From Candidatus Peribacter sp. (lineage in GTDB: Bacteria > Patescibacteriota > Gracilibacteria > Peribacterales > Peribacteraceae): 64,000 nucleotides of DNA. The translations under genes and the position numbers were made by a program. The notes beneath the pieces were generated by a model. The model was given only the letters and a program-made list of their open reading frames with translations. It ran no database searches and was not told where the DNA came from. The stretch is taken from NCBI GenBank assembly GCA_018652955.1, contig JABIBA010000009.1, forward strand, positions 1-64,000, given 5' to 3'. Below, one piece after another: positions 8,044-35,618 of the stretch (positions are counted from its first letter, which is position 1; the number at the start of each line of letters is the position of its first letter).

Positions 8044-9312
8044 TTACTGCCAGTTTTCAGGCGTAATTCCAGGGCAGGGGAAGCTCTGACAGAGTTCTTC
8101 TACTTCACCGGCTATACGCTTAAGAACTGCTTCGTCGGATGCGTTGTCGATTGCTTCGCTCATCCAATCTCCAAGCTTAGCCATCTCATCTTCTTTCATA
8201 CCACGAGAAGTGATCGCTGGAGTTCCAATACGAACACCTGAAGGCTTAAATGGTGGGTTTGGATCGAACGGAACAGTGTTGCAGTTGGTAACAATACCTG
8301 CAGTATCGAGAGCTTTAGCAGCGTCACGACCGGAGATACCTTTAGAGGCTTGTGTTTCAAACAAGATCAAGTGGTTATCTGTTCCTCCTGTTACGAGACG
8401 GAAACCGTGACTGTTTAATTTCTCTGCTAGTGCCTTTGCGTTTGCCACAATCTGAGCTGCGTACGCCTTAAACTCTGGTGTCTGAGATTCCTTAAGGGCA
8501 ACAGCGATTGCTGCTGTCGTGTTGTTGTGTGGACCCCCTTGAAGTCCTGGCATGATTGCTTTGTCGATCTTCTCTGCATGTTCTTCCTTGCAGACAATAA
8601 GAGCACCACGAGGTCCGCGGAGAGTTTTATGTGATGTCGTAATACCAGTGTCTGCCATTGGGTATGGGCTTGGGTGTACTCCTCCTGCGATAAGTCCTGT
8701 GATATGTGAAGTGTCTGCGTGGAAGTACGCACCAACTTCGTCACAGATTTCACGGAACTTCGTCCAGTCAATTGTTCGTGGGTATGCGGTGTACCCTGCA
8801 ATGATCATCTTTGGCTTTACTTCTCTTGCTTGCTCTAGAATTTTGTCGTAGTTCAGAAGCTCTGTCTCTTGGTCGAGTTCGTATGGAGAAGAGTGATAGG
8901 TTTTTCCAGAGAAGTTAACCTTCCAACCGTGCGTTAGGTGACCTCCGTGAGGAAGAGCGAGTCCCATAATCGTATCTCCATGTTCGAGTACTGCGTGGTA
9001 GACCGCCATGTTGGCAGGACTTCCAGAGTACGGCTGCACGTTTGCGTGTGGCATGTTAAATACTTCTTTTGCTCTTTCTATAGCAAGAAGCTCTACTTCA
9101 TCAACAACCTGCTGACCTTCGTAGTATCTCTTCTTTGCGTATCCTTCTGAATATTTATTCGTTAGACACGAACCTGTCGCTTCCATAACGGCATGTGACG
9201 CGTAGTTCTCGGATGGAATCAACCGCATCTTGTCCCACTCACGTTTTTCTTCAGTGATAATGAGATCGCGGATAGTAGGGTCAGTGTCTTTAAGGGCTGG
9301 GAGGTATGTCAT
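8044..9312 (-). CDS. glyA: Serine hydroxymethyltransferase
   Basis: MIPSENYAS, NVQPYSGSPANMAVY, TSHKTLRGPRGALI; start placed at MTYLPAL. Confidence 0.97.
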   Translation of the reverse strand: MTYLPALKDTDPTIRDLIITEEKREWDKMRLIPSENYASHAVMEATGSCLTNKYSEGYAKKRYYEGQQVVDEVELLAIERAKEVFNMPHANVQPYSGSPANMAVYHAVLEHGDTIMGLALPHGGHLTHGWKVNFSGKTYHSSPYELDQETELLNYDKILEQAREVKPKMIIAGYTAYPRTIDWTKFREICDEVGAYFHADTSHITGLIAGGVHPSPYPMADTGITTSHKTLRGPRGALIVCKEEHAEKIDKAIMPGLQGGPHNNTTAAIAVALKESQTPEFKAYAAQIVANAKALAEKLNSHGFRLVTGGTDNHLILFETQASKGISGRDAAKALDTAGIVTNCNTVPFDPNPPFKPSGVRIGTPAITSRGMKEDEMAKLGDWMSEAIDNASDEAVLKRIAGEVEELCQSFPCPGITPENWQ

Positions 9313-18745: not shown

Positions 18746-20815
18746 GTGAGCCAAGAACCCATTAGCAATCAGGCCTTAGTGGCAGTCGGAACAATTACTG
18801 CTGTAGTTGTCGCTATTTATGCGGGCAACTGGCAGGCGGATTTGTTGGCTCAAACAGGTGCACCAAGTTTCGATCCGCAATCTGTTTGTGGAAATGAAAA
18901 ATGCGAACCAGGAGAGGATAGGATTATATGCGCATCATGTGCTCGCGATGAGGAAGGAAATCCTATGGGGAATTGTCCTTGCGAAATGATGTGTGAGAAA
19001 GACTGTAAAAAGCCAGATGATGATCGTTGCAAGCCTCTTGTGTGCCCTACTGGTAAGCAGCATCCTCGCTGTAGTGCAGATGGAAGCACAATTAATTACT
19101 TTAGAGATCCGTGCGGACCTATTTGTCCAAGTATTCTTTGCTCGGCTCCTCCAAAAGGATGTAAGTATGTTCCTCCTTACAAGGAAAACGAACAAGGTTG
19201 CCAAGCGAGCTGTGGAGAGTTGGCTTGTGAAGAGCAATGCCAGACCGTGGATTGTGTAGCCCCTCCTGAAGGTTGTAAATATGTGAACCAAAGGTTTGAT
19301 GGAGAGTGTCAGGTGAATTGTGGAGAGATAGTGTGCGAAACAAAAAACCTCTGTGGCAATGGACGTTGTGAAGAAGGAGAGGAAGATAAATTTGATCCAG
19401 GAGGTTGTGGACCGGGAGCTGATAGCCGGTGTCTTGGACCTCCATCTCGATTTATCCCAGGCTCATGTCCTAGAGACTGTAAGCCTCTAGATAAGTGTGC
19501 ACAGATGTTCTGCCCGAATGGTTGCCGCGATGGACAGTGTCTTCAGCCGGCTGCACCGAGAGTATGTAACTTCGAGGGAGGAGTGTATCAAGCTGGGGAT
19601 GTCTTTAAGGCTCCAGATGGATGTAACAAGTGTTACTGTAACCAAAACGGAACTGTTGAATGTACAGAGATGGCTTGTGTCGATGATGACGATGATGAAA
19701 TAGCCGAAGAACGCTTTCGAAATGTCCAATTTGGATGTCGAGATGGATTGACGTTAAATGAAGGGGGTCCTACATCGTGTAAGTCTCGCAAGGAGTGGAA
19801 GAATTTTGTTATAGAAACATGTGGAAATCATTGTGATGATCATGGGTGTGGTGAAACTGCTATGAATGTATATGAACCTTGCAGTGGGAGTGATGGCGGA
19901 AGTGCTTCATTCTGCCTGTCTGGAGGACAGAGATATTATCCAGGTGATAGTTTTGTGGCAGAAGATGGTTGCAACAAGTGCCACTGCAGTGAAAATGGTA
20001 CTGCAGCTTGTACCAAGATGGCTTGTATAGATCCTCCACAACCAAGCTTTCCAAATCCAAATGACCCGACTGATCCAGACCAAGGGTGTTACTCCACGCA
20101 AGATTGCGGACCAGGAACTATATGTACTGTAGAACTTGGAGAGTGTAATAGTGGACCATGTGATGCAGCAGGCAACTGCGCGGATGTATGCACAGGACAT
20201 TGTGTTGAGAGAGGTTCCAATTCACCTGATTTCCCAGAAGATCCTGTGGAATATGAAGATGAAGTAAAAACTGCACCGGTAGAAAATCGCTTCTCTGATG
20301 CGCAGACAGGAACGCTCGAAGGTACTGCAGCAAATGATCTTGCTCAGCGCGGAGTAATTGGCGGATTCCCTGATGGAACATTTAGAGGAGAAAAACCTGT
20401 AAATCGTGCAGAAGCTGCGAAGTTCTTACTTATGGCTCGATTCGGATTTGTCGGAGAGGCACGGAACAATAACCTCTTCCTCGATGTCCTCGAAGGGGAG
20501 TGGTACGTGAAGTATGTGGTAAATGCTGCCGAGCTTGATATTATCTCTGGATACTCCGATAGGACGTTTAGGCCTGCAAATACGGTAAATACAGCAGAAT
20601 TTCTCAAGATGCTGAGCAAGACCTTTGGACTACCGCAGGATCTCCCTCATAATTACTCAGACGTCCCAGAAGGCGCTTGGTTTAGCACATTTGCTGGTGC
20701 TGCCCAGCAATACGGATTATTCCCAGGAAGGCCTGAGGGCAGGCTACAGCCTGATAAATTGCTGACGAGAGGAGAAGTGGCGATTGCGATTTACAAATTG
20801 ATGGAGAATCAGTAG
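18746..20815 (+). CDS. Large Cys-rich secreted protein with VWC-like repeats and C-terminal SLH domains
   Basis: Two copies of xxGDxFxAxDGCNKCxCxxNGTxxCTxMAC; two or three SLH repeats (RGVIGGFPDGTFRGEKPVNRAEAAKFLL); GTG start. Confidence 0.8.
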   Translation: MSQEPISNQALVAVGTITAVVVAIYAGNWQADLLAQTGAPSFDPQSVCGNEKCEPGEDRIICASCARDEEGNPMGNCPCEMMCEKDCKKPDDDRCKPLVCPTGKQHPRCSADGSTINYFRDPCGPICPSILCSAPPKGCKYVPPYKENEQGCQASCGELACEEQCQTVDCVAPPEGCKYVNQRFDGECQVNCGEIVCETKNLCGNGRCEEGEEDKFDPGGCGPGADSRCLGPPSRFIPGSCPRDCKPLDKCAQMFCPNGCRDGQCLQPAAPRVCNFEGGVYQAGDVFKAPDGCNKCYCNQNGTVECTEMACVDDDDDEIAEERFRNVQFGCRDGLTLNEGGPTSCKSRKEWKNFVIETCGNHCDDHGCGETAMNVYEPCSGSDGGSASFCLSGGQRYYPGDSFVAEDGCNKCHCSENGTAACTKMACIDPPQPSFPNPNDPTDPDQGCYSTQDCGPGTICTVELGECNSGPCDAAGNCADVCTGHCVERGSNSPDFPEDPVEYEDEVKTAPVENRFSDAQTGTLEGTAANDLAQRGVIGGFPDGTFRGEKPVNRAEAAKFLLMARFGFVGEARNNNLFLDVLEGEWYVKYVVNAAELDIISGYSDRTFRPANTVNTAEFLKMLSKTFGLPQDLPHNYSDVPEGAWFSTFAGAAQQYGLFPGRPEGRLQPDKLLTRGEVAIAIYKLMENQ

Positions 20816-27951: not shown

Positions 27952-28872
27952 CTAGGCCTTTACTCTTTCAAGTACCAATCCTCCTAGTTGACCTACTACT
28001 GTGTCGACATTGTCGTTTACGATCACGTCATCAAATAGTTCGCTGCGTGTCTTAAAGAAGTCGAGATCTGCCTCTGCGTTCTTGAGACGGTCTTCGATCT
28101 GCTTTTCGGTGTCACGTCCACGGTCTCTTAGTCTGTGTAGAAGCGAGCTGAGCATTTGACGCTTACTTTTCCCTGGTGGCATCAATCCAAATGAGAGGAT
28201 AGATCTGCGGCCGTAATGAGAGGAGAGACCTTGTAGTAAGTTCATCTCTGTAATAATCACGGGGATCATTTTCTTTTGCCAGATGGCATCGATGTCTTCT
28301 GTGCGATACCCATACCAGCGCTTTTCATCGCGAGAAGGAATACAGGTGCTTGTTGCGAGCTTCCCTTCATTCTTAAGTGCGAGGAATTCTTCTGGAGATA
28401 CGTGGACATACTCATCAGCGTCACCTTCTTTTGGTTCGCGAGTTGTGAGAATCGGCACACGCTCCACGTACTTTCCGACCTTAGTAGATAGCAGTACAGA
28501 GACTGTAGTTTTTCCAACCCCCGAAGGGCCAGTGAGCGCCAAGACGTATCCAGGGAACTCTTGCTTTACGGTTTGTTGTACTGGGATTTCATACGAGACA
28601 TCGTACGTGCGAAGCCCTTGAGTATTTACACTCGATAGGCGCATTTTTGGCAGCACTTTCATGCCGATAGCTATTGGTTGATCTGTTTCTGAAATTAAAT
28701 GTCCGCTTACCTTTTGTCCGTCTTCTAGTTCGATCAGTCCGATATTGCGAGGTCCCGCTGGGAAACCTTCTGGTGTGTGGTGCACTGTGGTAAACGACAA
28801 GATCGTCCCTTCTTGCAATTTTCGCTGCAGGTCTTTTTGGGCGCGGTGAATGGCAGCTGGAGTATTACGCAT
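27952..28872 (-). CDS. Fusion: DUF35-type OB-fold domain + guanylate-kinase-like P-loop kinase
   Basis: N-term GTILSFTTVHHTPEGFPAGPRNIGLIELEDGQKVSGHL (DUF35 OB fold, no Zn ribbon); C-term LTGPSGVGKTTV, TTREPKEGDADEYVHVSPEEF, LRDRGRDTEKQIEDRLKNA, DDVIVNDN (GMK-like). Start set at 28872, overlapping thiolase stop as ATGCGTAA. Confidence 0.8.
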   Translation of the reverse strand: MRNTPAAIHRAQKDLQRKLQEGTILSFTTVHHTPEGFPAGPRNIGLIELEDGQKVSGHLISETDQPIAIGMKVLPKMRLSSVNTQGLRTYDVSYEIPVQQTVKQEFPGYVLALTGPSGVGKTTVSVLLSTKVGKYVERVPILTTREPKEGDADEYVHVSPEEFLALKNEGKLATSTCIPSRDEKRWYGYRTEDIDAIWQKKMIPVIITEMNLLQGLSSHYGRRSILSFGLMPPGKSKRQMLSSLLHRLRDRGRDTEKQIEDRLKNAEADLDFFKTRSELFDDVIVNDNVDTVVGQLGGLVLERVKA

Positions 28873-29971
28873 GAGAGAGAATGTGGATGCCGCAGGTAGC
28901 GGCTGCTCCTCCAAAGTTATGAGCAAGTCCGTAAGAGGACTTCGAGTTTTTGAGTTGTTTCGATACATCTATAACTTGCTTAATTCCTGTAGCCGCCACT
29001 GGGTGACCGCAAGCCTTTAGTCCTCCGCTTTGGTTGATGGTCATCGGGCTTTCTTTTTCGTAGAGCGCTATAGCATTACCAGGTGTTGCAAATCCCATAT
29101 CTTCAAGAGAGATGAGGGCAGCAATAGAGAAGCAGTCGTGGAGTTCTATGTGGGCGATTTCTTCTCGCTCGATATTAGCTTCTTGTAGAGCAGCACTCAT
29201 AGCATCTTTGGTTGCTGCAAATGATGTAATAGTTGGACGGTCAGTAATACTCAATGTATCGGTAGCCAGCTGTGAGGCGGCAATCTTAATTGGGCTTTCA
29301 AATTTTGTAGACAAAACAACGCTAGCCGCCCCATCGGAGATAGGGGAGCAGTCTAGCATGCAGAGTGGGTCTGCTACTTTTGGAGACATTGAAATTGCCT
29401 CTGCGGGTATCTCTTTGCGAAATTGTGCGAAGGGATTTTTCACACCATTCTTATGATGGCGTGCACTAACATGGTTTAGGCGTTCACGGCTCAGGTTAAA
29501 TTCATGCATGTATCTATTGGCAATGAGGCCAAAAATACCAGGGAAGGTAAGGCCACATGGTGCGTCTTTCTCTGCATCAGCAGCTCCCATAAGTCCTGCG
29601 GCTATTTTGCTTGGAGCGATATCGGTCATCTTCTCTACTCCGACAACAAGTACAGTTTGTGCTTTACCACTTTCGAGTAATGCACACGCAGTATGCAGAG
29701 CGACAGCGCCAGAGGCGCAGGCAGCTTCTGCACGCAAAGCAGGTGGATGGTGTGGGAGGAGGGATGCAGCCATTGCACCCAAGTGCGCTTGATTAGATGC
29801 GACTTCACCAAGCATATTGGCGACGATAACCATATCAATATCAAGGGCGGTACAGCCTGCATTCTCAATTGCTGCATCTATAGATTCTTCCATCAGATCT
29901 TTAATCGACATATCCCAGTGCTCCCCAAAGCGAGTTTGTCCTGTGCCTGTGAGGTAGATTGGAGATTGCAT
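28865..29971 (-). CDS. Thiolase (archaeal/SCPx-type acetyl-CoA acetyltransferase)
   Basis: AEAACASGAVALHTA, HDCFSIAALISLEDMGFA, GGLKACGHPVAATGIKQ. Confidence 0.92.
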   Translation of the reverse strand: MQSPIYLTGTGQTRFGEHWDMSIKDLMEESIDAAIENAGCTALDIDMVIVANMLGEVASNQAHLGAMAASLLPHHPPALRAEAACASGAVALHTACALLESGKAQTVLVVGVEKMTDIAPSKIAAGLMGAADAEKDAPCGLTFPGIFGLIANRYMHEFNLSRERLNHVSARHHKNGVKNPFAQFRKEIPAEAISMSPKVADPLCMLDCSPISDGAASVVLSTKFESPIKIAASQLATDTLSITDRPTITSFAATKDAMSAALQEANIEREEIAHIELHDCFSIAALISLEDMGFATPGNAIALYEKESPMTINQSGGLKACGHPVAATGIKQVIDVSKQLKNSKSSYGLAHNFGGAAATCGIHILSHA

Positions 29972-30993
29972 TAATGAGCTGCTGTAAGTTTTTGGTATTC
30001 GCAGTAGTTGATGTAGGTCGTTTCTCTAGTATCAGGTGCAAGTGCTACACCATCGCGCATCATCGTCATTAAGAATGCATCAGATCCTGCGCCAGAACCA
30101 TATGAGACTAGTAGAATGCGGTCACTCTTCTTTGCCTGTTGTAATACATGGGCAAGGCCGAGTGGACTGCAGGCTGAGTAGGTGTTTCCAACAGTTGGGA
30201 CGATAAATCCGTGCTCAAGTTGCTCTTTGGTAAAGCCTAACTCTTTGGCGATGCGACTTGGGAACTTCGCATTTGGCATATGGAAAACTACATGATCGAT
30301 GTCTTCTGGTTTGATCTTTCCTACTTCGAGTATCCCTTTGGTCGCTTCTCGTACGTGGTGAAAGTACGCAGGCTCTCCAGTAAAACGACCTGCATGTTCT
30401 GGGTGCTGTTTTCCATTTGCCCTCCAGAAGTCTGGTGTGTCTGTGGTAAACGACAGAGTCTGATCTATCTGGCAGAGTGCGTTCTTATTATCAGTCGACC
30501 CCATAACGAATGCAGCGGCACCTGCTGCTGCAGTGTATTCGAGTGCATCACCGGGTTTGGATTGTGCGCAGTCTGCACCTATCGCCAGTCCATGACTTAT
30601 TTGCTTTGAGCGAATCATACTATCGACAATCTGCATCGCCGCTGTTCCTGCTTTGCAGGCAAACTCGAGGTCTGCGCAATGACAGAACGGGTCACACTCA
30701 AGAGCGGCTGCTACCATTCCACTTGTTGGTTTTACGGCGTACGGGTGGCTTTCGGATCCTACAAATACTGCAGAGATCTGAGAAGTTTTAATATCTGCTA
30801 ATTCAATTGCCTGACGCCCTGCTTCAAATGCGAGGGTGAAGGTATCTTCTCCTGCATCTGGTACAGATTTTTCTGTAACCCCTAGACCTGCTTTCATTGT
30901 CTCTGGATCTTGTTTCCAGGCGTGCGCAATCTCTTCCGACGTTATACGTCGGGAGGGGATGGATATACCGAAACCAAGGATGGCGGATTTCAT
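29971..30993 (-). CDS. Hydroxymethylglutaryl-CoA synthase (archaeal type)
   Basis: AVFVGSESHPYAVKPTSGMVAAAL, DLEFACKAGTAAMQ, HMPNAKFPSRIAKELGF, GNTYSACSPLGL. Confidence 0.93.
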   Translation of the reverse strand: MKSAILGFGISIPSRRITSEEIAHAWKQDPETMKAGLGVTEKSVPDAGEDTFTLAFEAGRQAIELADIKTSQISAVFVGSESHPYAVKPTSGMVAAALECDPFCHCADLEFACKAGTAAMQIVDSMIRSKQISHGLAIGADCAQSKPGDALEYTAAAGAAAFVMGSTDNKNALCQIDQTLSFTTDTPDFWRANGKQHPEHAGRFTGEPAYFHHVREATKGILEVGKIKPEDIDHVVFHMPNAKFPSRIAKELGFTKEQLEHGFIVPTVGNTYSACSPLGLAHVLQQAKKSDRILLVSYGSGAGSDAFLMTMMRDGVALAPDTRETTYINYCEYQKLTAAH

Positions 30994-31071
30994 CGAAAGA
31001 GATTTTAGCAGAGATTCGGCTCTGTAAAGCTATTTAGAAGGGTATTTATTGGTTGTGGCAAGAGGTCTTAT

Positions 31072-31484
31072 TTGTAACTTTTCAGATGAATAGTTCTAGT
31101 TCTTGTTCATTTTTGCCTTAATGCAAAAACGAACCAAAAAAATCAAGACGAGCGCAGACTCGTGCGAAGCAAAGTTTCTATTGCTTTAGATGTGCGCACT
31201 TTCAACCAAGCTTGCTTCGCAACTTGGCATTCAAGTGCTAAACACGCATTATGACCATATTCTTCGCTCTCAAACAGGTGCGCTCGTCGCTTACGGATAT
31301 AACATTCGTCGTCATGCCACTGTAATGTGGACGAAGATCACCCCGCCTTAGTGTCATCGTAGCGACGCAGTGCGAAGCTGCGCAGCAGACTTCGTCCAGG
31401 AGCGCTCGGGTTCATATTGTCTTTATTTCTTCGTTCACGTCTGTGGCAAAGATTTTTGGTTACTTTTCATCTGAAAAGTTACAA
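31072..31484. repeat. 413-bp intergenic element bounded by perfect 19-bp inverted repeats
   Basis: TTGTAACTTTTCAGATGAA (31072-31090) and TTCATCTGAAAAGTTACAA (31466-31484); subterminal hairpin TTTTTGC-cttaat-GCAAAAA at 31110-31129; no ORF. Confidence 0.7.
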
Positions 31485-31489
31485 CAAGA

Positions 31490-32647
31490 TTATCTAGCCA
31501 ATTTCTTATGACTACTTGCAAGCTTCTGTGCAGCTTGAGCAGCTAGAAGACTGATTTCTCCTGCGAGGACTGCAGCTCCAATAGATTCAGCGAGCTGCTG
31601 AGCAGGTTTAAGATTGGTCTTTGGTTTCATGAGAAGATCTAAGCACTGACGCTGTGCAGGAAGCTCTGTTCCTCCTCCACGTACTCCAACGAGTAAAGCG
31701 GGGATACGCACACGTACAGAGATGCCATGTGCTTCTTCGGATACTGTTGTATCGGTCATCGATCCTTCTACTGTATGTGCAGTATCTTGCCCCGTTGAAA
31801 GATAGAGAGCAGCGATGACGTTTGCTGCATGCAAGTTAGACCCTATTGCTCCTGCAATGTTAGAGCCTCTTTTGAGCTTGGCTTCATACACATCAAGTAG
31901 TTTACTTGGCTCTACCTTCAGGATTTCTTTGATGATGTGTGGCTTGAGGAGTGCTTCGGCGATCACTTCGTATCCACGACCTTTGTCGTGCGTTCGCCTG
32001 CTTGGCTTTTTATCGCTATCAACATTTCCTGCAATCGTGATGAGTTCTGCATCAAGTTTTTGCGCAATCCAGTCTCCAATTTGTTGCGCAGCAATCGTGA
32101 TCATATTCATTCCCATGGCTTCATCAGTATCAGCTCGCAAAGATAGGAAGACGTAGTTATCGTCTTGGTCGATGTCGTATCCAAGGATTTTCAAGTGACT
32201 ACTTGTTGCTTCTCCGATCTTCTTCCACTCATCAGATTTTTGGTTTATTGAATCAATAAATTGTTCAGGTTTTTTATTTACTCTAAAAGCAATAGACCGA
32301 GTAATACCATGGTGAACCGATGTAATTTTTATCCCTTCTCCTTCGGACGCTGCTTTACATCCACGGTTCACGCTGGCAACCAATGCACCTTCGGTAGTTG
32401 CGAGTGGCAGATGCAGCTGCGATGTTTCAAGTGAGCTGAATGTTGCCTTCAGTGGACCTGCGTATCCGACTGGAATCGGAATACTTCCAAACATCTGTTC
32501 GCAGTTATTTACTTCTGCCTGTCCTATTCTGTTTGGCTCTGTTCCAAGTAACGACAGATTTAAATCCAAAGTATCTTGGATCTTCATTCTTCGTACGGCA
32601 CAGCGCTCGTGAGAGGAGAGTGATTCTGGAAGGTCGCGGAGGTTCAT
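31490..32647 (-). CDS. Hydroxymethylglutaryl-CoA reductase (class I-like)
   Basis: IPIPVGYAGPLK, LATTEGALVASVNRGCKA, DTDEAMGMNMITIA, GNVDSDKKPSRR, SNLHAANVIAALYLSTGQD. Confidence 0.94.
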   Translation of the reverse strand: MNLRDLPESLSSHERCAVRRMKIQDTLDLNLSLLGTEPNRIGQAEVNNCEQMFGSIPIPVGYAGPLKATFSSLETSQLHLPLATTEGALVASVNRGCKAASEGEGIKITSVHHGITRSIAFRVNKKPEQFIDSINQKSDEWKKIGEATSSHLKILGYDIDQDDNYVFLSLRADTDEAMGMNMITIAAQQIGDWIAQKLDAELITIAGNVDSDKKPSRRTHDKGRGYEVIAEALLKPHIIKEILKVEPSKLLDVYEAKLKRGSNIAGAIGSNLHAANVIAALYLSTGQDTAHTVEGSMTDTTVSEEAHGISVRVRIPALLVGVRGGGTELPAQRQCLDLLMKPKTNLKPAQQLAESIGAAVLAGEISLLAAQAAQKLASSHKKLAR

Positions 32648-33624
32648 TAGACTAAGTATGCCCCTTGGCCTACTGATGCCTCAAACACTTTGCAGCTTTC
32701 TTGGGCGTGCGCATATTCAGTTATTCTCTCTTTTGCCTCATCCGTGCAGAATAAATGGACCGTAGGGCCTGCATCCATGGTATAGAGAACAGGGAGGTGG
32801 TCCGCCTTCCTCATGCTTTTTACCTCATCTAATATCCGATAGGTCTCATCACTTAAGTAATTCAGAGGTGGATCTTGGGTCTGCATACAGTGGTGCATTT
32901 CCATACAATCTTCTTCTACGACTGCCTGCAGCTTCTCGAAATCTTTCGCAAGGAGTGCGTCGATACATTCTTGCTGTCGGTGATTATTAATATCTTCAAC
33001 ACGCTTCGCAAAGTCTGGGCTTGTCCACGCCTTAGGGTGTCCTTCGGAGGACCCGACTTTCTTCTCTTCGGTACTTGGAACGATGATGATGTCATGAAGG
33101 TTCCAGTGATGCTCGTCTGCAACCTGCCATCCTTTAGATCCATCGATAAACAAGTTCTCTTCATTACGCACTGCACCGTATCCACCAAAGATACTGCGAG
33201 CAGCACTACCTGAGCCGAGGCGAGCCATGACACTGATCTGTTCATCGGTGAGATCCGCATCGACTAAACCAGAAACAGCTTTTGCGAGTGCAGAAAATAC
33301 TGCAGCAGAAGAGGCGAGTCCGATACTTGGTGGAATCTGAGAGTCGATAGTTATCGTTAGATTGGAGACTTCAGTTGGTGCAATTGTTGCGAGGTAGACT
33401 TCTATCAAGTTGAGAGTTTTCTGAAACCGCACTGTGTCTTTTTCGGTCATCTCTTTATTGGCAGAGGTAACCGAGAGTGTCTCTGCAAGTTCTATGGATA
33501 CATCAACATGAGGACCATCGAGCGTCATCGCGAGGTTCTCATTTGCACACAGACGAAATTCGTCGTGTCTGTTTCCCCAGTATTTAATAAGCGCGATGTT
33601 TGGTGTAGAGCGGGCGGTGATCAT
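32647..33624 (-). CDS. Diphosphomevalonate (or phosphomevalonate) decarboxylase
   Basis: STPNIALIKYWGNR, IPPSIGLASSAAVFSALAKA, ARLGSGSAARSIFGGYG. Confidence 0.92.
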   Translation of the reverse strand: MITARSTPNIALIKYWGNRHDEFRLCANENLAMTLDGPHVDVSIELAETLSVTSANKEMTEKDTVRFQKTLNLIEVYLATIAPTEVSNLTITIDSQIPPSIGLASSAAVFSALAKAVSGLVDADLTDEQISVMARLGSGSAARSIFGGYGAVRNEENLFIDGSKGWQVADEHHWNLHDIIIVPSTEEKKVGSSEGHPKAWTSPDFAKRVEDINNHRQQECIDALLAKDFEKLQAVVEEDCMEMHHCMQTQDPPLNYLSDETYRILDEVKSMRKADHLPVLYTMDAGPTVHLFCTDEAKERITEYAHAQESCKVFEASVGQGAYLV

Positions 33625-34442
33625 AATCGGATTATAGGGTACGTGTTATCCGCTAAAGAAGCATCGGTATTAATGGCCAAAATCATTCCACATCCACCTG
33701 TGCGACTTCCTGCTCCTATTACCTTGGCAGATCCGCCTTCTTGTTCAATTTTTGTGATCAATTCTTTTGCCTTATCTGTAACAATACCAAGTGACTGCTG
33801 CGCTTTATTATGCTCTTTAAAAATCTCTGATAAATCTGTATTTTGTTGCAGTTTCTTACTACAGTTTCCAATGATTTCGAGTGGTTCAGATAACTCTTCT
33901 TTTCGCTCAGTTACCCATGCAACTAACTCTGGTGTTTGCTGCTCAGGATCTCCGGTGTCTATAAGAAGTGCTCCATCGAGTAGATTCTTTGGAAGGTCGA
34001 TGACCTTGGGCTCAGATCCTTTAATAAACTGCACGGGGCTTTCATTCCAGATCACTGCAAAGTCGATACCACTGTTTCCAGGGTTAACGATATCTTCGAT
34101 CTCTGCAGCGCGCTCTTTGCAGTCCTCTCCAAGAAGACATTTGCATACTGCAATAACCAAAGAAGTAGAGCTTCCCATTCCTTTACCGAGTGGAATCTCG
34201 CTCGCAATTGCTAGTGCACCTCCAAACGTACCGCATTCATGAATGATCTGCTTGAGATACTGTTGCCACTCCGGCTGTCCGACCATTTGCTCCCAAGCGA
34301 CTGAGAGATCACCTGACTCTGCATCTTCCTCAAAACTCACAGCCATCTTAAGAGGAGAGGGTACTGCTATCCCAGGGTAGCCAAAGAGAACCGCGTACTC
34401 ACCCGTAAGGATGATCTTTCCTGAAACAGTTGCAGTACTCAT
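33621..34442 (-). CDS. GHMP kinase, probable mevalonate kinase
   Basis: GKIILTGEYAVLFGYPGIAVP, IPLGKGMGSSTSLVIAVCK, NSGIDFAVIW. Confidence 0.85.
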   Translation of the reverse strand: MSTATVSGKIILTGEYAVLFGYPGIAVPSPLKMAVSFEEDAESGDLSVAWEQMVGQPEWQQYLKQIIHECGTFGGALAIASEIPLGKGMGSSTSLVIAVCKCLLGEDCKERAAEIEDIVNPGNSGIDFAVIWNESPVQFIKGSEPKVIDLPKNLLDGALLIDTGDPEQQTPELVAWVTERKEELSEPLEIIGNCSKKLQQNTDLSEIFKEHNKAQQSLGIVTDKAKELITKIEQEGGSAKVIGAGSRTGGCGMILAINTDASLADNTYPIIRL

Positions 34443-35107
34443 CCTCCGAACCTTCGGGTACGATCTGCAAATGTTGTGACTGAAGTTTCTAGATCTTCTA
34501 CAGAGAAGTCAGGAAAGAATTTATCAATAAAGTCCCACTCCGCATACGCTGCCTGCCATAAGAAGAAGTTGCTGGTGCGATGCTCTCCTGAAGTGCGAAT
34601 TATCAAATCAATATCAGAAAGTTCTGGGTGGTCGAGTGCGGCAGAGATCCCATCTTCACTTTTGTCATCAGTTTTGCCGAGGGCACGCACAATTTCATCT
34701 TTTCCACCGTAATCTATAGCAAGATGCAGTGTAAATTCTGTTTGGTCTTTTGTTTCCTCTTCTACCTCTGCAATAAGTGCTGAAAGAGAAGCGGGGATAC
34801 GGTCCTTGCGACCACTGTGAACAAAGCGCGTTTTATTCTCTAAGAATGTTGAACGTTCTTTTTCTAGATATTCTTCGAGTAGGCCCATCAACATATCAAT
34901 TTCTTTCTGATCACGTTTCCAGTTCTCTGTTGAAAAGCACCAGACGGTAAGAGTGTTTACACGGGAATCTTCTCGGCACCAGTCTGTAAGGGTACGGAAG
35001 TTTTCTATTGCTACCTTGTGTCCTTCCCAAGGTTTAAGGGTACGGGTTTTTGCCCAACGCCTGTTTCCGTCAGGAATGATAGCAATGTGTAAACCGTTAT
35101 CTGGCAT
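34439..35107 (-). CDS. uppS: Isoprenyl transferase (undecaprenyl diphosphate synthase family)
   Basis: LHIAIIPDGNRRWAKTRTLKPWEGH, TVWCFSTENWKR, DLIIRTSGEHRTSNFFLWQAAYAEWDFIDKFFPDF. Confidence 0.95.
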   Translation of the reverse strand: MPDNGLHIAIIPDGNRRWAKTRTLKPWEGHKVAIENFRTLTDWCREDSRVNTLTVWCFSTENWKRDQKEIDMLMGLLEEYLEKERSTFLENKTRFVHSGRKDRIPASLSALIAEVEEETKDQTEFTLHLAIDYGGKDEIVRALGKTDDKSEDGISAALDHPELSDIDLIIRTSGEHRTSNFFLWQAAYAEWDFIDKFFPDFSVEDLETSVTTFADRTRRFGG

Positions 35108-35618
35108 CGAGAGCTATCGGTAATGCGAGGTGAAACCACGGAGCGTATGTTTCTGGGCGCTCTTCCATATCCTTTTTAAGCTCATCAAGTTCTATCCATT
35201 TCATCTCCATAATTTCTGCAGGGTCTGGATGCATTTGCGTTGATTCTTCAACAGTTCCTATCAGTACTGTGTCATATTCGTATTCTGTCCCTTTGCCATC
35301 AGGGTCGTCAGCTTTATAAACAAATGAGTCTGCAACGGAGAGTCCTGTGCGAAACCCACACTCTTCTTTGAGCCTGTCTGCACCTTCTATCTCGATAGGA
35401 AACTTCTCTTTTGGGTGAGAGCAGCAGGTATTTGCCCAATATCCTGGGAAGAGCATCTTTACAGAAGCACGTCTCTGGATGAGGATTTTGCTCATATCAG
35501 GGCTAAATATAAAGACAGAGAAGGCTTTATGGAGCTTTCCACCCTCGGTGTGAGCCTCGATAATTTCGGACTTCCCAAGCGATTCTCCCTGTTCATTAGT
35601 TAGAATGACGGATTTCAT
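35097..35618 (-). CDS. idi: Isopentenyl-diphosphate delta-isomerase, type I (Nudix)
   Basis: KLHKAFSVFIFSPDMSKILIQRRASVKMLFPGYWANTCCSHPK, RLKEECGF. Confidence 0.93.
   Translation of the reverse strand: MKSVILTNEQGESLGKSEIIEAHTEGGKLHKAFSVFIFSPDMSKILIQRRASVKMLFPGYWANTCCSHPKEKFPIEIEGADRLKEECGFRTGLSVADSFVYKADDPDGKGTEYEYDTVLIGTVEESTQMHPDPAEIMEMKWIELDELKKDMEERPETYAPWFHLALPIALDAR

Follow-up and report, generated by a model that had tools for sequence, protein, structure and literature searches.

The mevalonate operon of a Candidatus Peribacter genome ends in a gene for a fusion protein, the kinase half of which appears, from its sequence and setting, to supply the one phosphorylation that the pathway is missing. 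The gene lies in the window, the 64,000-nucleotide stretch of DNA analyzed here. We propose that this terminal gene of the Peribacterial mevalonate operon encodes a bifunctional protein, in which an N-terminal OB half would replace the stand-alone DUF35 scaffold joining acetoacetyl-CoA thiolase and HMG-CoA synthase (HMGS), and a C-terminal guanylate-kinase-fold (GK) half would act as the third ATP-dependent kinase of the pathway, otherwise missing. That the kinase half is this third kinase, working either on isopentenyl phosphate (IP) or as a phosphomevalonate kinase (PMK), is quite likely. Its most likely reaction would be the phosphorylation of IP to isopentenyl diphosphate (IPP), and the combined reading, with an IP kinase (IPK) in one half and a thiolase/HMGS scaffold in the other, is one towards which we lean slightly. 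The route would then run from mevalonate kinase (MVK) through a phosphomevalonate decarboxylase, encoded by the MVD-like gene, to the IP kinase, and the kinase half would be a non-orthologous replacement of the IPK with the amino-acid-kinase fold. A step thought to be absent from Peribacteria, very small bacteria that are for the most part uncultivated, is thus probably performed by an unrelated type of enzyme. We infer the kinase activity, the substrate and the binding to thiolase and HMGS alike.

The fusion protein and its operon

The fusion is encoded by a continuous ORF of 306 amino acids on the reverse strand (27952–28872), as indicated by the ORF itself, Pfam matches, conservation in relatives, and AlphaFold and Foldseek analysis. 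Its ATG at 28872 overlaps the stop codon of the thiolase gene, as ATGCGTAA, and it is the last of the eight genes of a mevalonate operon, the other seven lying upstream in the same direction. The single ORF, the overlap and the position at the end of the operon had all been proposed in the initial annotation, and all were borne out. Continuing upstream, the reverse strand encodes the acetoacetyl-CoA thiolase (28865–29971; Pfam Thiolase_N/C; PRK06064, 369 bits), an HMGS of the archaeal type (29971–30993; TIGR00748, 405 bits, above the cut-off), HMG-CoA reductase (HMGR; 31490–32647; Pfam, 5.9e-92), an MVD-like decarboxylase (32647–33624; TIGR01240, 187.8 bits; nearest PDB entry 6n0x) with the signature N18, R24 and H196 in our residue table, and a GHMP-type MVK (33621–34442), which scores 96 bits on TIGR00549, below the cut-off of 163, and the PDB matches of which are mevalonate kinases. 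The remaining two genes encode undecaprenyl diphosphate synthase (UPPS; 34439–35107; Pfam, 9.2e-66; TIGR00055 above the cut-off) and a type 1 isopentenyl-diphosphate isomerase (IDI; 35097–35618; TIGR02150, 108.7 bits, above the cut-off). The gap between the HMGR and HMGS genes (30994–31489) is about 500 bases long and contains no ORF of note; in the close relative L035 it measures about 40 bases. Elsewhere in the window, 18746–20815 encodes a long cysteine-rich protein with an end resembling SLH-type repeats, which brings to mind the surface proteins, likewise rich in cysteine, that have been reported for Peribacteria.

The N-terminal half had been read in the initial annotation as a DUF35 OB fold without its zinc ribbon and the remainder as a guanylate-kinase-like P-loop domain, and profile searches agreed with both assignments. 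Residues 21–73 match OB_ChsH2_C/DUF35 in Pfam (4.7e-12; 46.1 bits against a cut-off of 27.1), and residues 111–296 match Guanylate_kin (3.5e-11; 43.6 bits against a cut-off of 25.2). No zf-ChsH2 match was found in Pfam, and there are no N-terminal cysteine pairs. An AlphaFold model, based on an alignment of 38 relatives, had a mean pLDDT of 86.4 and displayed an all-beta, OB-like N-terminal half, with strands in residues 22–95, and a C-terminal half with the guanylate kinase (GMK) fold. The OB half was delimited to residues ≈1–104 (28561–28872, reverse strand) by Pfam and the model strands, and the GK half to residues ≈105–306 (27955–28560, reverse strand) by Pfam, Foldseek, and the pattern of conservation and decay described below. 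By Foldseek, the C-terminal half was closest to guanylate kinases, with a TM-score of 0.88 to yeast GMK (1gky) at 22% identity. It has a P-loop, GPSGVGKT, at residues 115–122, acceptor-phosphate residues R145, Y155 and Y187, and LID-region arginines R247, R251, R253 and R262.

In archaea, DUF35 proteins scaffold thiolase and HMGS, according to a passage of PMC6996347 that cites Vogeli et al. 2018. The fusion belongs to the same OB family as the archaeal DUF35/OB_ChsH2_C protein (PF01796; 6et9 chain E), its gene stands beside those for thiolase and archaeal-type HMGS, and stand-alone homologues fill its operon slot in other CPR. Unlike the archaeal scaffold, the fusion has no zinc ribbon and carries a C-terminal kinase, and it is the gene neighborhood that suggests a bridging role. 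The zinc ribbon is also absent from L155 and L156, two stand-alone DUF35 homologues in other CPR mevalonate operons; going by these proteins, its absence from the fusion is nothing special.

The family sample consisted of 56 genomes, 46 with at least two GHMP genes, counted as having the pathway, and 10 without GHMP genes. The architecture, which the initial annotation had suggested seeking in other CPR genomes, was present in 45 of the 46 and in 0 of the 10 (Fisher p 3e-10, with relatedness ignored), the only exception, G413, having its operon cut by a contig end. Thiolase adjoins the fusion in nearly every locus whose contig reaches far enough. A scan of genome contigs gave matches only in three very close relatives. 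Among 381 genomes of the phylum, the full fusion appeared only within the family; other members of the phylum have stand-alone DUF35 proteins, some without a zinc ribbon, adjoining thiolase in mevalonate operons. A chance fusion was excluded because relatives at 42–84% identity keep the full architecture, and a frameshift artefact was ruled out by its presence in 45 genomes. Our literature search found no description of a DUF35–GK fusion. One genome, G107, has a lone kinase domain (L143:5501-6424) that has lost the OB half and kept the main catalytic residues; no GHMP, IDI or UPPS genes were found in G107, and by these signs the enzyme has been orphaned or repurposed. GK homologues that occur alone in other members of the phylum (L158–L164) resemble ordinary GK-family proteins and have no mevalonate neighbors, bar a weak match to IDI next to L160.

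The missing kinase and the acceptor site

Every ATP-dependent route from mevalonate to IPP that we considered uses three ATP. The genome of the window (1.2 Mb, 99% complete) contains only two GHMP genes, those for MVK and the MVD-like protein, with no recognizable PMK, and its one amino-acid-kinase gene is pyrH-like. IPK, searched for with NF040647, was not found above the cut-off in any of 47 family genomes, the genome of the window included. Within the operon, the fusion is the only candidate for a third kinase. The pathway was described as "near-complete" in the Peribacteria genomes published in 2016, with genes leading to MVA-5P and from MVA-5PP only (PMC4736985).

Comparison with guanylate kinase (PF00625, 1gky) suggests how the acceptor site has changed. 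In yeast GMK, Arg38, Tyr50 and Tyr78 presumably hold the acceptor phosphate, and Ser34 and Glu69 read guanine. The fold, the P-loop and the LID arginines are common to the fusion, as are the first three residues, kept as R145, Y155 and Y187. In contrast, Ser34 is replaced by Ile141, which is invariant in 38 sequences, the Glu69 column holds a variable small residue, Ser80 has become Tyr, and the fusion has an extra PPGxSxR segment and extra arginines at an overall identity of about 22%. Retention of the phosphate-holding residues together with loss of the guanine readers is as expected for a kinase of a non-nucleotide monophosphate. The suggestions in the initial annotation that the GMP site is altered and that the enzyme may use another substrate therefore stand. 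IP and mevalonate 5-phosphate would both qualify as that substrate. Of the two, phosphomevalonate would fit the conserved polar residues of the acceptor region (S180, R185 and E209) no worse than the greasy IP would.

The fold and Pfam family of the kinase half are those of guanylate kinase, as would be the case for a second guanylate kinase or another nucleotide kinase, tethered to thiolase and HMGS either through an accidental fusion or to supply ATP/GTP locally. Such a function is very improbable: the base-recognition residues are lost, and the fusion scores only 73.1 bits on the GMK equivalog model TIGR03263 (cut-off 160.45), on which the other gmk of the genome scores 136.7. That separate gene, at G000:C11:30042-30602, has the usual GMP residues. 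Moreover, the presence of the fusion tracks the mevalonate pathway, and its catalytic decay tracks a PMK-like gene. An ordinary gmk with a divergent leader, the alternative named at the outset, was ruled out by the separate gmk and the lost GMP residues.

The fusion matched neither NF040647 nor the amino-acid-kinase fold in NCBIfam. It is not a GHMP protein, as a PMK of the TIGR01220 or NF040957 type would be. To our knowledge, a PMK is either a GHMP protein or a P-loop enzyme of the animal type. If the kinase half were a PMK, it would convert mevalonate 5-phosphate to the 5-diphosphate, with decarboxylation by the MVD-like protein completing the classical pathway. P-loop PMKs would then have arisen twice, here and in animals. 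This would explain the same genomic gap, and R185, S180 and E209 could serve as contacts for the carboxylate and hydroxyl of mevalonate 5-phosphate. The animal-type PMK also shows that a P-loop kinase can act on a monophosphate of the mevalonate pathway, human PMVK being an enzyme of the NMP-kinase family (PMC4823745). However, the fusion has no sequence match to that enzyme, P-mevalo_kinase being unmatched in Pfam and NCBIfam; it belongs to a different P-loop kinase subfamily and has an OB domain fused to it. Taken with the survey that follows, we consider a PMK the main rival reading, but an unlikely one.

Decarboxylase signature and IPK survey

The Peribacterial MVD has N18 and R24 in place of Lys21 and Ile27 of S. 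epidermidis MDD. Both residues are present in 34 of the 34 readable MVDs of the window type, and H196 in 35 of 35. MPD-like enzymes without the Lys conserved in MDDs and with Arg for Ile27 are listed in Table 4 of PMC3857490, and absence of the Lys with the His kept is the PMD/dual pattern of PMC11052028; the switch and the dual activity are described in PMC9254496 and PMC11052028. Read at these positions, the Peribacterial MVD carries the published phosphomevalonate decarboxylase signature, Lys to Asn with the His retained. In sequence, it agrees with 6n0x, a PMD/dual MVD from Anaerolinea (Chloroflexota), in having Asn and His at the two sites that distinguish this entry from the variant 6n0z, whereas its equivalents of Ser139 and Ser192 are MDD-like. 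We take the Anaerolinea enzyme, with its same N/H signature, to accept both substrates. In line with a PMK in the kinase half, the Peribacterial MVD scores above the diphosphomevalonate decarboxylase cut-off of TIGR01240, and its signature would also allow dual specificity (PMC11052028).

Among other CPR sampled, 15 MVDs have Lys or Arg at this position; none of their genomes has IPK, and in most cases the operon also contains a PMK-like gene. Only two MVDs have no basic residue (Met or Gln), in G157 and G019, and a canonical IPK above the cut-off was found only in these two among 64 genomes. The operon of G019 (L187:2109-2915 and 8146-9282) contains the canonical IPK together with a Gln-type MVD, and the GSSA motif is absent from the PMK-like gene beside the IPK. 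IP is favored as the substrate because the non-basic MVD signature goes with IPK elsewhere in CPR. By the same comparison, sampled CPR operons with an intact PMK-like gene have MVDs with the basic residue that the Peribacterial decarboxylase lacks, which speaks against a PMK. PMK was at first taken as the best reading of the kinase half, and was demoted to a rival because of this residue survey and the IPK search.

The amino-acid-kinase IPK (NF040647) would share with the fusion the proposed reaction and the type of partner decarboxylase. Its fold, in contrast, is unrelated, and no Peribacter genome tested has a homologue above the cut-off. In the phylum of the class Chloroflexi, IPK was not found outside that class (PMC3857490), which counts against an IP kinase here.

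Two genomes, G304 (L122) and G416 (L128), have a third MVD type, with KYMGK followed by an 8-residue insertion, together with an intact kinase half; no PMK-like gene was found near either locus. They are a discriminating case between IPK and PMK. The combination in G304 of a Lys-type MVD and an intact kinase half, with no PMK found, favors a PMK. It also counts against an IP kinase, as do the lone kinase domain of G107 and the intact kinase half of G395, described below.

Kinase-half decay and its meaning

Eight family genomes (G385, G392, G393, G394, G395, G410, G412 and G415) contain a third GHMP gene that forms a pair with an MVD of another kind, the usual MVD having been lost. The extra gene resembles the second GHMP gene of other CPR operons and carries the motif GSGFDVA. 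Its best NCBIfam score is for MVK. We infer that it is a PMK, because its CPR counterparts stand beside an MVK with the PSGGDN motif, and because it has GSGFDVA and outscores that MVK on PMK models.

Decay was measured over 65 near-invariant positions of the kinase half. In seven of the eight genomes with the PMK-like gene, 8–14 of the 65 are changed, against 0–4 in the 37 fusion genomes without it, where the catalytic residues are kept and there is next to no variation in the P-loop, acceptor-phosphate or LID residues (Fisher p 2e-7, relatedness ignored). The changed positions include R145, Y155, Y187, R185, S180, R253 and R262; the Walker A lysine, K121, is changed once, in G410. On a tree built from thiolase, HMGS and HMGR, the PMK-like gene and the decay each require five changes, and four independent contrasts went the same way in 3.7 cases on average and the opposite way never (sign test p 0.125, four contrasts being too few to reach significance). 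The one exception is G395 (L130/L131), in which the PMK-like gene and new MVD are found beside a fully conserved kinase half; G416 may likewise keep an intact kinase half beside a PMK-like/MVD pair.

The PMK-like character of the gene that accompanies the decay, with its GSGFDVA motif, would fit a PMK in the kinase half. However, MVD and kinase were swapped together in the eight genomes, which is required only if the route changed. The OB half persists in the genomes with a decayed kinase half, which fits a scaffold function separate from catalysis. The kinase domain itself also persists in the seven genomes after loss of catalytic residues, so the fold is retained; together with the physical fusion to a scaffold domain, this could point to a non-catalytic, MAGUK-like GK domain, which would bind protein or regulate the thiolase/HMGS complex in response to a nucleotide or intermediate. 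We regard this as quite improbable, since the near-invariant P-loop, acceptor-phosphate and LID residues in genomes without the extra gene are as expected for catalysis, and the pathway would be left one kinase short. Given the missing kinase and the decay beside a PMK-like gene, the earlier suggestion that the kinase may use a different substrate or act in regulation can be sharpened into a proposal for a specific enzyme activity.

An enzyme of the guanylate kinase fold would be new to this pathway step, yet built from known domains in a known pathway. Known IPKs have the amino-acid-kinase fold (PMC3857490), so an IP kinase here would, if true, represent a previously unseen non-orthologous replacement within a core pathway. 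With nearly even confidence, we suggest that it may be the first IPK outside the amino-acid-kinase superfamily, derived from guanylate kinase and fused to the thiolase/HMGS scaffold, in which case a single multi-enzyme assembly in Peribacteria may combine the entry to the mevalonate pathway with its final kinase step. Should the kinase half prove to be an IPK or a PMK, isoprenoid engineering would also gain a new tool of the GK fold. The relatives with a PMK-like gene and a decayed kinase half are natural experiments that make the claim directly testable. The fusion offers a concrete candidate for the step reported missing in Peribacteria, and suggests that these bacteria use the alternative, IP-kinase route of the mevalonate pathway.
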